Shown here piece by piece: positions 39,298 to 46,650 of a stretch of DNA of 64,000 nt. The notes under the pieces are model-generated. The model did not search any database. It was given only the letters and a program-made list of their open reading frames with translations, and was not told the DNA's origin. This stretch comes from an uncultured Bartonella sp. (GTDB lineage: Bacteria; Pseudomonadota; Alphaproteobacteria; Rhizobiales; Rhizobiaceae): positions 186,001 through 250,000 of the forward strand of contig CAMLBF010000003.1 of NCBI GenBank assembly GCA_946478235.1. The letters are read 5' to 3'. A program made the position numbers and the translations under genes. Numbering within the stretch: position 1 is the stretch's first letter; every line of letters begins with the position of its first letter.

Positions 39298-40932
<1,635 letters not shown>

Positions 40933-40957
40933 TCAAGTCCTATACAATAATAAATTT

Positions 40958-40984
40958 AAACGGGCCTTCGGGCCCGTTTTTTTA
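40958..40984 (+). terminator. Terminator after groEL
   Basis: AAACGGGCC-TTCG-GGCCCGTTT, a nine-pair stem with a stable UUCG tetraloop, followed by a T run. A textbook intrinsic terminator for the groESL operon. Confidence 0.95.
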
Positions 40985-41278
40985 TAACCAGTTTTTGAAA
41001 TAATACTGTCGTCACTGACCCATAATTAATGCTAACGAGTTGTTTTGATCTTCCAGCATCGCAAATGTTATTTTCAGCATCTTGAATGCCTTCTACAACA
41101 TCGTTGCGTCTAACAATTAATATATTTTCTGTAATTGAATTTAATGAAAAAAATAAATCACCCAGCAACCTAATTTATTTTGTGCGGGTTATTAAAAGTT
41201 ATCAATCGGATTCACATCATTAAAGGTTCATCACGATAAAATTATGCCTTAGGCACTTTCATTGATGATAAATAAAGT

Positions 41279-41310
41279 GATCCGGTCGAAGGGATGTTTT
41301 CGACCGGATC
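41279..41310. repeat. Hairpin of repeat unit 1
   Basis: GATCCGGTCGAA and TTCGACCGGATC, a perfect 12-bp stem with an eight-base loop. Compared with the equivalent hairpins of units 2 and 3 the C-G pair at position 5 is replaced there by A-T, with both sides changed together. Confidence 0.85.
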
Positions 41311-41615
41311 TTATAGGCTGTTGTGTTCAAAGTTGCGGGGCCAAAAACTCAACGAGCCTAATCTTTTTATGACCTATTTTTAAAACAACGTCTTTTCCAG
41401 TTTCTCGCTTCATTAAATAGGTAGATGTCACCAAATTCATTATTTGAGATGACCTCTCGATAGAGAATTTAGAATTAGGTTCATCAACCAATAAACGCTC
41501 ACTTTTATCTTCATGAGGTCATTTTGATTGAGGATCTCCTTTATACTTCATGTGAGAAGTATAAGAACTTCCGTGTATCAAACCCTTGTCTCTACCTATT
41601 CAACTTCAGCTTTCC

Positions 41616-42141
41616 CCTGTCTATTTTCCCCAAAATACCGCATATGACCTGCACGCTAAGCAAAAGCGCTAATGTATATGCGGCAATCCATTGTTTCATT
41701 TAGAACATCTCATTCCCATGACTAAATCTTGAAAATAGAATGCCCTAATCTTTGTTCTGGATCAGGTCGAAAGATTTAATCTTTCGACCTGACCACTAGG
41801 CAACCAAGTTTAGGGTTGCGGGGCCCTAACTCAATTGTCCTATTTGATAAAACAGTTGCACTTGGATGAAGAGCGTCCGTGAATTTTGTTACTAACTTGA
41901 ACTTTGTCACTAATAGGATAAACACAACTCCATAATGTCACCTATTTATGTAACCAAATATAAAAATGGTTTGCAAAGTTTCGAGCACGATAACCCTCAA
42001 CGGAAATTCAATTTCCGCTAAATTGCCATATCAATCGTGGAAATGCCTAAAAGTTGTCTTATTCTGACTACTTCAGACGAACTTCCAATTCATTTTATGA
42101 CCAGTTACGATTTCTGAACACCCAATCAGTCCAAAATTCCC
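41616..42141. repeat. Repeat unit 2
   Basis: About 526 bases. It starts CCTGTCTATTTTCCCC and contains the inverted repeat CCGCATAT/ATATGCGG (41638-41645, 41676-41683) and the long hairpin at 41762-41792. The GGTTGCGGGGCCCTAAC block and the GAAGAGCGTCCGTGAA block follow. It is the closest relative of unit 3, which follows directly. Confidence 0.82.
41762..41792. repeat. Hairpin of repeat unit 2
   Basis: TCAGGTCGAAAGAT and ATCTTTCGACCTGA form 14 perfect pairs around a three-base loop. It has no T run on either strand, so it does not look like an ordinary terminator. Confidence 0.85.
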
Positions 42142-42162
42142 CCTGTCTATTTCCCCAAAATA

Positions 42163-42209
42163 CCGCATATGACCTTTACATTAGACACATTCGCTAATGT
42201 AATATGCGG
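42163..42209. repeat. Composite inverted repeat in unit 3
   Basis: CCGCATAT + TACATTAG on the left pair with CTAATGTA + ATATGCGG on the right, 16 pairs in all, interrupted by a six-base bulge on the left arm and closed by a nine-base loop. Unit 2 keeps the outer CCGCATAT/ATATGCGG part. Confidence 0.8.
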
Positions 42210-42285
42210 CAATCCATTGTCTCATTTAGAACATCCCATTCCTATGAATAAGTCTTGAAAATAGAATGTCCTAATCTGTGTTCTG

Positions 42286-42320
42286 GATCAGGTCGAAAGA
42301 AAAAATCTTTCGACCTGATC
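42286..42320. repeat. Hairpin of repeat unit 3
   Basis: GATCAGGTCGAAAGA and TCTTTCGACCTGATC form 15 perfect pairs with an AAAAA loop. It corresponds to the hairpins at 41279 and 41762; the fourth unit has only a decayed version at 42775-42806. Confidence 0.85.
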
Positions 42321-43944
42321 ACTAGGCAATCAAGTTTAAGGTTGCGGGGCCCTAACCCAATTGTCCTATTAGATAAACCAGTTTTACGTAGATGAAGAGC
42401 GTCCGTGAACTTTCCCATAACAGAATGAACACAACTCCTTAGTGCCACCTATTTATCGAACCAAATATAAAAATGGTTTACAAAGTTCTGAGCATGAAAG
42501 CTCAAGCGGAAAGTTCAATTCCATTAAACAGCCATACCAATCGCGGAAATATGTAAAAACCGTCTTGTAAAAACTATTTACAGCAAATTTCCATTCAACT
42601 TTATGACTAGTTACGATTTTTGAACGCCCAATCAGTCCAAAATCTCCCTATTCAATATCTCCAAGTGACGGCGAGTGACTATAAATCAAAAAATAACTTG
42701 ACTTAAATGCCCTCTGAAAGCCCGTTTTAACGAGTCAATTCATCCTCAGCTTACTCAAAAACTTTGCACCTCAAGATCCGACTGGAAAAATACTTCCAAC
42801 CTGATCGATAGACTAAGAGGTTTAGAGTTGCGGAGTTCTAACCCAACCGTTCTATTTAACAAACATTAATCTTATATGATGGAAGTTCTTTGCAATTTAA
42901 CATAATGACAAAGCATTTTGAACATCTTTGCGGGATAAACCCCAATGTTAAATACCTGCAAAACAAGAATCAAGGTTCATTATATCACCTTTAAAATCTT
43001 GCCAATCACATACAAGCAATAGAAACTGCGTTAACATATCACGTCAAATTAACGCATCTTGTTCCTAAATTAGCTTATAATTTAATATGACTTCCGAACA
43101 CCCAATCTGTTCGACTCCCCTATTCTAACAAACATTTCGCATCACCATACAAAATGCAAAATTGATATTATATTCCGTTATTTCCACTTTCGTGGCCATA
43201 TAACGTAACTTGCCGGTTCATACCAATTTATATCTCTCACCATAACTCACAAATTTAACCGATGAATCCCCTTTTTGATAAATCGATTAAACCAAAAAGA
43301 TAATATGTCTCTCGCCATTTTATCCCTTATTCTCTTTTATATCATTAGCCGTATAATATGTCAGCTTTTTTTTCTAAGATATAAACATATTTTTTTACCG
43401 CATTATGCTCCATGTAGACACAGCAAATAACGTATGACTAAAACAGAATACGCACATCTTATCTACAAGCAAACAATTAAAAATACCAATCAAATAAAAA
43501 CAAAATATCTTATTTCTATAGATGTTTCTTTTATAACAACATAAAAATAAAAATACAAATAAAAAATTAATCGGATAAGAAATTTATATTATATTTTTTA
43601 TACAAATTTTACTCGATTAATTCTTTTACTCAAAAAAACACTCTTTTAAATATTGTAAGCAAACACAATTATTTATGAAGCCCCACTTATTACAAACTAG
43701 ACAAAATCACCATTATTTTTGCCTCTATATGCTGTTCATTCATCACCAAACTTCCATAAGGTGCATTTCATATTATGTCACCATCTTTGACGGCTTGTTT
43801 TGAATACAATTTGCAGGGTATGATTACCGATAAATACGATTCCACACCCTCGCAATTTGGATGAAAAGCAATATGGCAAATTAATACTGAAACTATCATT
43901 CGCTCTTTGCGCCATACCGTAAAGTCATAATAAATACAGCAACA

Positions 43945-44088
43945 TTGGACACATTAAGGCTATGCTAGTCTAGAATCACACGCAACGACACACCGTTCGC
44001 GCTTAAAAGTCAGAATAGTGTAACAGTTCTAATGTTGTTTTAGCATTGCACTCTCCTAAATTACCGGATGCTTAAGCTTCCGTTTTTT
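43945..44088 (+). ncRNA. Possible small RNA or leader RNA ending at an intrinsic terminator
   Basis: There is no ORF upstream of the strong terminator at 44065-44088, so a short untranslated transcript must be ending there. TTGGAC at 43945 with TATGCT/TAGTCT/TAGAAT around 43961-43976 may be its promoter, but spacing is not ideal and the 5' end is a guess. In Bartonella henselae, Brt RNAs of about 200 bases lie directly upstream of helix-turn-helix Trp genes; the layout here is the same. Sequence homology to Brt was not tested. Confidence 0.42.
44065..44088 (+). terminator. First terminator upstream of the XRE gene
   Basis: CGGATGC-TTAA-GCTTCCG (one T-T mismatch in the stem) followed by six T. 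It lies 101 bases before the XRE start codon with no gene in front of it. Confidence 0.8.
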
Positions 44089-44106
44089 GAGTGTTTTATT
44101 CAACAT

Positions 44107-44125
44107 CTGTCGGTTTTTCTGACAG
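44107..44125 (+). repeat. Hairpin between the two leader terminators
   Basis: CTGTC/GACAG stem with a nine-base loop that contains a T run. It could be part of an alternative fold of the XRE leader. Confidence 0.4.
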
Positions 44126-44149
44126 TCGAAGTACAGTTAAACCAATACT

Positions 44150-44172
44150 CCTATTTTGTAAATAGGTTTTTT
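44150..44172 (+). terminator. Second terminator, directly before the XRE ribosome site
   Basis: CCTATTT-TGT-AAATAGG, seven perfect pairs, followed by six T; the T run ends 17 bases before the start codon and 7 bases before the GAGG Shine-Dalgarno. Most transcripts would stop before the gene unless the stem is prevented from forming, which is the layout of an attenuator. Confidence 0.78.
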
Positions 44173-44189
44173 GTGTTTTGAGGTTTTTT

Positions 44190-44630
44190 ATGGCTAGACC
44201 GGAAAACGAGGCGAAAACTGCGCTTGGAAATAGACTTAGATCTGTCAGAAAAGCTGTTGGTGATCCAGACCGATCGACATTTGCGAAAAGCATTGGAATT
44301 TCAAAAAATTCTTTAGCAGCATATGAACGTGGAGAAAATGAACCTACCGCATCTACTTTGGCTGCCTATGCGTCTAATTATGGTGTTTGTTTGCAATGGC
44401 TTATCACTGGTGAAAGTGAAATGTTTTCGTCTGCACAATTTTGTTTACAGGGTGCATGTATTTTAGACAAAGATGTTATGAAAATTGCCATTGAGGCCGT
44501 CGAAGAAGGTGTTGGTGAACGTCGTTTTCCGGCGGATAAAAAAGCAAAACTTATTTTATTGGGGTACGATCTTATTTTAAAAGATAAATCAAATCGCACA
44601 AATGTTATAGAGTTAGCTCGTTCCGTTTAA
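44190..44630 (+). CDS. XRE-family helix-turn-helix regulator
   Basis: A 146-residue DNA-binding protein. The lambda-repressor-like helix-turn-helix domain spans about residues 12-72 (GNRLRSVRKAVG, then FAKSIGISKNSLAAYERGEN). The C-terminal half (about 80-146) is a helical domain without a LexA-type peptidase. GAGG lies six bases before the ATG; a TTG four codons upstream is less likely. Two intrinsic terminators precede it, so expression is probably low or conditional. It resembles the Trp regulators that follow Brt RNAs in Bartonella; it could also be a prophage relic, but no phage genes are near. Confidence 0.87.
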   Translation: MARPENEAKTALGNRLRSVRKAVGDPDRSTFAKSIGISKNSLAAYERGENEPTASTLAAYASNYGVCLQWLITGESEMFSSAQFCLQGACILDKDVMKIAIEAVEEGVGERRFPADKKAKLILLGYDLILKDKSNRTNVIELARSV

Positions 44631-45261
44631 CCCAAGTCATATTCCTTAAAGCCTTTTAGGGCCCCGTACTTGAGGGAATATATGTATATGAACAATTTTA
44701 AATGCCAATGAATGTTTACAATTCTGTTCATATGTTTGCCGGAAAATATCAGACTTATTTTGTATGATATTTATCAAACTTAACTTCCATTCAAACCACT
44801 TCGTTTATGTCATAGTGATATGAGTTTGTTTCCTAAAAGCTACAATATGACAACGTTCCGAATGGCTTAGCTTCAAATATGATATGATGAGAAACATGTA
44901 TGTTGGCCACTGTTGCATAGGAAGCTAATCAGCAAACTTATTGCAATTTTACAGCTTTATATTTTTGTAGCTTATTACCAAACTATTTAAAACATATCAT
45001 CATTTATCACTGCATGTTTCATATGGATAATTTGAAATTCAGTTAGACGATTTTAGCTTGGTTACATGTCTTTTCTAGTCTTAACAAAAGCCTTCAAGAG
45101 AACCTATCGTTTCAATATCGTCGAGCGGCACACTTTTTTCGCATAACTGCATAATTCGCATAACTGTAAAAAAGGTGATCAAATAATTCACTTTCTTGCT
45201 ATAGGCCTTTTCACTCTACGATTGTTGTTCTATCGTTGCTGCATAGAAGAGGAGTTATAGC
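44631..45261. other. Spacer between the XRE gene and fumC
   Basis: A 631-base AT-rich spacer with no supported gene. A partial direct repeat CGCATAACTG occurs twice near 45140-45165, ahead of fumC. I see no tRNA, no terminator with a clear stem after the XRE gene, and no clear promoter boxes for fumC. Confidence 0.45.
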
Positions 45262-46650
45262 ATGGCAAATACGCGTACTGAAACAGATACATTTGGTGCA
45301 ATCGACGTCCCGTCCGATCATTATTGGGGAGCCCAGACAGAACGTTCTTTGCGTAATTTTAAAATTGGTGGTGAAAAACAACCAATTCCATTAATACATG
45401 CTTTAGGTATTATTAAAAAAGCTGCAGCTATGGCCAATATGAAAGCTGGTAAACTATCACCAGACCTCGGCAAAGCAATTATCGCAGCAGCCGATGAAGT
45501 CATTGATGGTAAGCTTGATGATAACTTTCCTCTGGTTGTTTGGCAGACCGGATCCGGCACGCAAACCAATATGAATGTGAATGAAGTTATCTCTAATCGG
45601 GCAATTGAAATGCTTGGTGGAGAAATGGGATCGAAAAAGCCAATTCACCCTAACGACCACGTCAATATGAGCCAGTCTTCCAATGATTCATTTCCGACGG
45701 CCATTCACATCGCTGCAGCAATGCAAACAGTAACAAAACTATTTCCGGCAATTGACCACCTAACTGCAGCTTTAAAAGACAAAGAAAAGCAATTTGAAAA
45801 AATTATAAAAATTGGTCGTACCCATACACAAGATGCAACGCCAGTTACTCTCGGGCAGGAATTTTCTGGATATCGTGCTGCTTTGGAACATAATCGCGTG
45901 CGCATTGAAATGGCGCTACAAGATGTGACCAAGCTAGCACAAGGTGGCACCGCTGTAGGAACCGGCCTTAATGCCCCAATCGGTTTTGATCAAACCTTTG
46001 TTGAAGCTGTGACTGACATAACAGGTGTTGCGTTTAAAACTGCTGAAAATAAATTTGAAGCATTGGCTAGCCATGGTGCAATTACAAATTTCCACGGCAG
46101 CTTAAATGCGCTTGCGACAGATTTGTTTAAAATAGCAAATGATATTCGCTTTTTAGGCTCAGGCCCAAGATGCGGTCTTGGTGAATTGAGTCTTCCGGAA
46201 AATGAACCTGGCTCATCAATCATGCCAGGCAAGGTAAACCCAACGCAATGTGAAGCGATGACGATGGTTGCCTGTCAGGTTTTTGGCAATGAAACAACAG
46301 TCACCGTTGCGGCTAGCCAAGGCCATTTCGAGTTAAACGTATATAAGCCGGTGATTGCATATAACGTTCTGCAATCAATCAAGATATTATCTGATTGCAT
46401 GGTTTCTTTTGCTGACCACTGCGTTGAAGGCATCAAAGCCAATGAAGAGCGTATTCACGATCTTCTAGAAAAATCATTAATGCTTGTTACTGCACTTGCG
46501 CCAGCCATTGGTTATGACAAAGCAGCAAAAATTGCCAAAACAGCACATAAAAATGGCACAACATTGCGAGAAGAAGCTTTGAACGCTGGTGTTTCTGAAG
46601 AAGATTATAACCGTCTTGTCAGACCGGAAGATATGATCCACCCAAAATAA
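45262..46650 (+). CDS. fumC: Class II fumarate hydratase FumC
   Basis: FumC (462 residues) interconverts fumarate and malate in the citric acid cycle without an iron-sulfur cluster. The superfamily signature [16 protein letters not shown] and the substrate-binding stretches [17 protein letters not shown] and [18 protein letters not shown] are intact. GAGGAG precedes the ATG. The gene is monocistronic and ends at a strong bidirectional terminator. Confidence 0.97.

Follow-up and report, generated by a model that had tools for sequence, protein, structure and literature searches.

An XRE regulator gene and the leader in front of it, found in a stretch of 64,000 nucleotides from an uncultured Bartonella genome (the window), are likely to be the repressor half of a Mu-like c/ner switch, kept after the loss of ner and of the transposase and probably autoregulated. 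We consider this the best explanation because leader and repressor both have homologs in the corresponding phage region, the leader has the family anatomy (hairpin T1, hairpin H2, palindrome H3), neither ner nor MuA is detectable in the genome, and the repressor gene is under purifying selection. The element is apparently a ner-less, domesticated form of a known phage switch. The short arms of H3, a poor −10 box, a T1 weaker than that of its kin and the composition bias of the profile HMM match all count against this explanation. The features are listed here in window coordinates:

43775–43864, plus strand: candidate small open reading frame of 29 amino acids, 5′ of the leader, open in three genomes
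44026–44189, plus strand: conserved leader of 164 nt, supported by identity in kin and by the covariance model match at 44053–44193 (47.8 bits)
44065–44088, plus strand: T1, terminator-like hairpin followed by six T, corresponding to CGGATG..CATCCG, the hairpin that the family has between ner and c
44107–44125, plus strand: H2, second hairpin, CTGTCGG..CTGACAG, counterpart of the family CTGCCC..GGGCGG, with compensatory changes
44126–44182, plus strand: alternative long hairpin reaching into the Shine-Dalgarno sequence (−11.1 kcal/mol)
44134–44162, minus strand: possible remnant of a leftward early promoter, −35 TTTACA at 44162–44157, 17-nt spacer, −10 TAACTG at 44139–44134
44150–44166, no strand assigned: H3, palindrome CCTATTTTGTAAATAGG, probable XRE operator by its position and centre and its association with the HTH; it was first described as hairpin T2
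44167–44172, plus strand: run of six T after H3, the tail of T2
44190–44630, plus strand: XRE gene, 146 amino acids, placed by N-terminal homology among the c-type repressors of Mu-like phages, stop codon ending at 44630

The first-pass annotation described two hairpins with six-T tails upstream of the XRE gene, and both are present. T1 has its stem at 44065–44082 and TTTTTT at 44083–44088 of the plus strand, while T2 has its arms at 44150–44156 and 44160–44166, followed by TTTTTT at 44167–44172. The spacings given for T2 are also correct: its end lies 17 bases before the start codon (ATG, 44190) and 7 before the Shine-Dalgarno sequence (GAGG, 44180–44183). Judged as terminators, both hairpins are weak. 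T1 folds with 4+2 pairs flanking a U-U mismatch at −7.1 kcal/mol, a stability equaled in 6 of 200 shuffles, and T2 forms seven pairs, two of them G-C, at −4.4 kcal/mol (8 of 200 shuffles). A consensus terminator scanner called neither of them and made one call elsewhere in the region, where 2.1 were expected. Seven of the 73 plus-strand T6 runs in the window are preceded by a hairpin of −4.4 kcal/mol or better; T1 (−6.1 by the scan script) is among the seven, and T2 (−3.7) is not. The energy of T1 compares with −9.2 kcal/mol in the two kin described below and with a family median of −8.7. The T1 hairpins of six phages are strong, at −18 to −25 kcal/mol.

The leader was rated above chance on account of its conservation in kin and not of its fold energies. 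Its kin are locus L034 of genome G006 and locus L035 of genome G238, both uncultured Bartonella MAGs; the window genome, G000, has 2.46 Mb. Positions 44026–44189 are 97.6% and 97.0% identical to the two kin, so that the element noticed upstream of an XRE regulator in this Bartonella proved to be real and conserved. Identity is 92.2% to both in the XRE coding sequence, about 80–84% in the 265 nt immediately 5′ of the leader (43761–44025), 68.5% and 67.0% in the outer upstream stretch (43300–43760), and 69.5% and 73.0% in the flank downstream of the gene. When 71 genomes of the genus were searched at the DNA level, a long match spanning leader and gene was found only in G000, G006 and G238; matches in the others were short and mostly confined to the HTH coding region. 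The few changes in the leader of the trio do not significantly avoid the stems (1 of 6 falls in a stem, P 0.55). The first 68 nt of the gene (44190–44257) have a single variable column among the three genomes, and therefore the constraint on the leader may extend into the coding region. The upstream region had been called gene-free. The hairpins do precede the XRE gene as described, but the region may hold the 29-codon frame at 43775–43864, in which the differences by codon position are 3/2/8, 2/3/6 and 1/1/4, mostly at third positions and few in all. A Pfam search with this frame (43775–43864) had no match.

Many Bartonella genomes carry XRE paralogs whose upstream regions align end to end with the window leader. 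Forty-nine upstream regions were listed, and 11 were skipped as too short upstream or lacking the motif, including those of L007 and L013, core single-copy orthologs whose upstream sequence is of another kind. Alignment A1 has 39 rows (the window, its two kin and 36 others), and alignment A2 drops the trio as well as a locus that contains unread bases, leaving 35; this locus was kept in A1 and in the set of 98 leaders used below. The covariance model R1 was made from 35 other Bartonella leaders, leaving out the window and its two kin. It matched the window over its full length at 44053–44193 with 47.8 bits, and across the whole of G000 it found a single site, which was the window leader (E 2.2e-4). 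Of the 71 genomes of the genus, 42 contain at least one R1 site. A profile HMM, built from 36 leaders and again without the trio, also ranked the window leader at the top (E 5.6e-4, next 1.1), with a composition bias of 17.1 bits in this match and an E of 0.025 for the T1-H2 part by itself.

R1 also reached into phages. Within the 19 kb searched, it matched Ochrobactrum phage POA1180 (E 2.7e-9) and, weakly, Rhodobacter phages RcWaterboi (0.024) and RcapMu (0.036), Sinorhizobium phage StopSmel (0.041) and Rhizobium phage RR1-B (0.29). There was no match to Sinorhizobium phage Aussie in the same 19 kb, yet its sequence shows a hairpin resembling T1 and a palindrome resembling H3. A small regulator gene lies opposite the repressor in each of these six phages; it is named Ner in two of them and assigned to the NLP family in one. 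In a Mu-like Bartonella prophage (G035) the unit opens a Mu-type early region, with the order c, divergent ner (HTH_35), ParB-like gene, MuA and MuB. The phages and the Mu-like prophages of Bartonella resemble the window in having a repressor whose N-terminus is homologous to that of the window XRE, an R1-type leader, and the element order T1, H2, palindromic H3. They differ from it in that ner and MuA were not found in the window genome and in that the window has short H3 arms, a T tract after H3 and an HTH class of its own. The sequence comparisons identify the leader as a homolog of the c-ner control region found in Mu-like phages. Rfam had no match among 4227 families, either for the whole window at gathering score or for 43850–44250 at E up to 5; blastn of the leader against plasmids and phages gave no match, and the search of viral contigs by protein gave 0 of 34 candidates. 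A search of titles and abstract openings on Bartonella and on Mu-like repressors, with little coverage of subscription journals, gave no description of the leader, which is weak evidence of absence. Short leader matches in seven other genera (E 0.025–0.094) were set aside as chance. Locus L037 of G000 (80% over 40 nt), with no adjoining XRE gene noticed, was also set aside.

The protein points in the same direction as the leader. The XRE domain matches HTH_19/HTH_3, and relatives are encoded in 15 phage records, of which the nine best all belong to alphaproteobacterial phages; there the gene carries the annotation immunity repressor, c repressor or regulator. The window XRE is 43–58% identical to immunity or c repressors of alphaproteobacterial phages, and its residues 1–80 are 59% identical to the c repressor of phage Aussie. 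Tandem c-type repressor genes about 610 bp apart were seen at L098, L100 and L107, where in each pair only one gene has upstream sequence of the T1-H2-H3 type.

To describe the family, 60 further R1 sites (not all of those found) were added to the leaders, giving 99, or 98 distinct ones after removal of an exact duplicate. The order toward the repressor is T1, H2 and then H3, which lies just 5′ of the Shine-Dalgarno sequence. When T1 and H2 were aligned, 91.7% of cells were paired, compared with at most 54.4% in slid controls, and 37 cells were doubly changed, compared with 8.1 (sd 4.6) in shuffles. On the repressor strand, at least five T are present in the eight bases after T1 in 96 of the 98 leaders; the count on the opposite strand is 0–4. 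Wobble pairs favor the plus strand in H2 (59 vs 24) and show no strand preference in T1 (31 vs 42); therefore, T1 could be a DNA palindrome and not an RNA terminator.

H3 behaves differently. In 85 units (13 of the 98 leaders, those without an ORF of 110 amino acids, were left out), H3 correlated with the repressor HTH with r 0.83 and partial 0.83, a value reached in 0 of 2000 permutations, in a comparison not corrected for relatedness. The T1-H2 part and the C-terminal part of the repressor served as controls for this test: r was 0.15 for T1-H2 and the HTH, 0.07 for H3 and T1-H2, and 0.19 for H3 and the C-terminal part. Where two units have a T1-H2 identity of 95% or more, the HTH class differs in 128 of 165 pairs. 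L113 and L114, both of one genome (G019), have T1-H2 100% identical and H3 53% identical; the values are 100% and 49% for RcWaterboi and RcapMu, and 98.8% and 60% for Aussie and StopSmel. This looks like an operator moving together with the reading head of its repressor. Among the 85 units the HTH class of the window XRE is shared only with its two kin.

T2 of the window has the same centre as the other H3 palindromes, but its arms (seven pairs) do not reach the length seen in several relatives. Only 9 of the 98 leaders have five or more T among the eight bases that follow the H3 arm. On the basis of the shared position and centre, the association with the HTH and the rarity of a T tract after H3, T2 is best read as the probable operator of XRE. 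The first-pass annotation took both hairpins for intrinsic terminators, and this holds in part: T1 fits a terminator-like family, but T2 stands at the operator position, and both are weak. T2 may still have a terminator role in G000, G006 and G238.

The leaders of the family also contain the trace of an early promoter. On the strand opposite to the repressor, the mean −35 score peaks at H3 with 4.61 of 6, against no more than 2.33 at other shifts, and the −10 score peaks 17 nt further toward ner with 3.52, against no more than 2.76 at other spacings. The window has kept the −35 TTTACA, and its −10 scores poorly (2 of 6 by count). A search for a promoter of XRE itself found none. The exact operator is present once per genome in G000, G006 and G238, each time at its own leader. 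Searches for the 17-mer with up to three mismatches gave, against a reversed control, 12 vs 12 in G000, 14 vs 18 in G006 and 12 vs 12 in G238. A single exact copy and no excess of near matches are easier to reconcile with an autoregulator, or with an immunity gene, than with a global regulator. One two-mismatch copy, CCTATTTTGTATATGGG, lies at 1501–1517 of locus L230 (G000:C14:9727-9743) and is shared by G000, G006 and G238. In G000 it stands at the 5′ end of what we take, from its motif, to be a HAD-like gene; as a regulon site, CCTATTTTGTATATGGG is unproven.

The partners of the phage repressor were searched for in the three genomes. HTH_35, the ner domain, had no match in G000, G006 or G238, and the ner profile gave a best E of 0.25 within 40900–45300, with a positive control at 4e-30. 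MuA likewise had no match in the three genomes; it was found in G035, G026 and G241, and gave none in G219, which keeps ner-like matches. Six early phage proteins compared with 40900–45300 by tblastn gave a best E of 0.6. G219 also has, at L094 (G219:C1:193845-197009), two adjoining c/ner-type units with diverged ner genes in a genome without MuA, and these are possibly other relics.

Such losses, together with an operator that is not enriched in the genome, would also be seen if the unit were a decaying phage relic with no present function, but we regard this as decidedly unlikely. The reading frame of XRE is intact in all three genomes, and the leader is far better conserved than its flanks. 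In comparisons among the three genomes dN is 0.027–0.038 and dS 0.19–0.30, with dN/dS of about 0.11–0.15. The low dN relative to dS therefore indicates that the repressor is being kept by purifying selection. The first-pass annotation compared the region to a Brt/Trp unit. On such an account the leader would yield a Brt-like RNA that ends at a terminator and silences a Trp regulator. The likeness is one of form: a terminator-like hairpin stands 17 nt 5′ of the start codon of an XRE gene in a Bartonella. A Brt probe taken from G219 found nine copies there and 34 in G241, the positive controls, which we take to be B. henselae Houston-1 and B. tribocorum CIP 105476. The same probe had no match in G000, G006 or G238. 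Table 1 of PMC5387305 prints 9 and 34 copies for these two strains, and the paper describes RNAs of 194–203 nt directly 5′ of XRE-type genes. Brt/Trp units share with the window the genus and a hairpin closely upstream of an XRE gene; they differ in that the window genome has no Brt sequence and the window XRE cannot be aligned with a Trp. A Brt profile made from nine loci matched loci of G241 with E down to 2e-70, but, with E allowed up to 10, had no hit around the 44-kb position (its best window hit, 4.3, lies elsewhere), so that the comparison of the leader with Brt sequences revealed no similarity. BLASTP of the window XRE against one Trp produced no alignment at E up to 100. With probe, profile and BLASTP all negative, Brt/Trp homology is refuted, and since the leader has its homologs in a different family, the Mu-like c-ner region, a unit of this kind is hardly credible here.

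Control of the gene by its RNA deserves separate consideration. The leader could be a stand-alone attenuator or riboswitch in which T1, T2 or both terminate transcription unless a ligand or an RNA refolds it. Its conservation, the nearly universal T tract after T1, the plus-strand wobble preference of H2 and the fact that T2 and the overlapping hairpin at 44126–44182 are mutually exclusive are all compatible with this. Nonetheless, the leader matches no Rfam family, the T tract after T2 is rare in the family, T1 wobble pairs have no strand preference, and a ligand sensor would not explain why H3 tracks the repressor HTH; we therefore hold this form of control to be unlikely. The long hairpin could instead act on translation by masking part of the Shine-Dalgarno sequence. 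It folds at −11.1 kcal/mol, and its pairing reaches the GA of GAGG, but 17 of 200 shuffles fold equally well and the sequence is nearly invariant in the trio, so that no covariation is visible; translational control of this type appears very improbable. The attenuator idea survives only in phage form, and for the T1 step the chances for and against look about equal.

Under the Mu-like c/ner explanation, the repressor would bind the H3 palindrome just 5′ of its own start codon. Bound there, it would shut what remains of a leftward early promoter that has its −35 inside H3. Because this site follows T1 and precedes the start codon of the repressor, binding would also cap the expression of the repressor itself. 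T1 is on the repressor strand, and transcripts starting 5′ of it would have to cross it. Pseudomonas phage Fc02 offers a possible model. According to PMC9936078, the repressor gene of this phage lies opposite ner, and in the lysogen its transcription apparently starts at a distal promoter, pC1, far upstream and beyond ner, giving a transcript of about 1,700 nt with small upstream ORFs. Unlike the window, Fc02 has ner and a promoter region mapped by RNA-seq. Since transcripts begun upstream, as from such a distal start, must pass T1, T1 may insulate or attenuate the repressor, which we consider roughly an even chance. With an Fc02-like start, the 29-codon frame at 43775–43864 would sit on the XRE transcript and could be a counterpart of the small ORFs of Fc02. 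Neither a ligand nor a Brt RNA would be required. We put forward, tentatively and as a speculative extension, that alphaproteobacterial Mu-like phages share an attenuated repressor leader between ner and c (a terminator, T1, and a structured element, H2), downstream of which HTH and H3 are swapped as a cassette so that immunity changes, and that the leader was domesticated here and sets the level of a host regulator, perhaps with the small ORF.

The virulence-regulation account of this region (Brt/Trp) is replaced by one of phage domestication. The comparison also provides a testable c-ner control map for the large Mu-like family of Bartonella, consisting of a shared hairpin module and an HTH-linked operator. 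If it is true, the pairing of HTH and operator would predict which repressor acts on which phage, and the family would supply natural HTH-operator pairs for studying changes of binding specificity.

A non-coding direct repeat of about 510–527 bp was observed at 41611–42664, in the gene-free stretch between groEL and XRE. It was absent from the other 68 of the 71 genus genomes. Two full copies are present in G000 and in G006 and three in G238, and each copy seen in G000 has a palindrome around GGTCGAAAGA.
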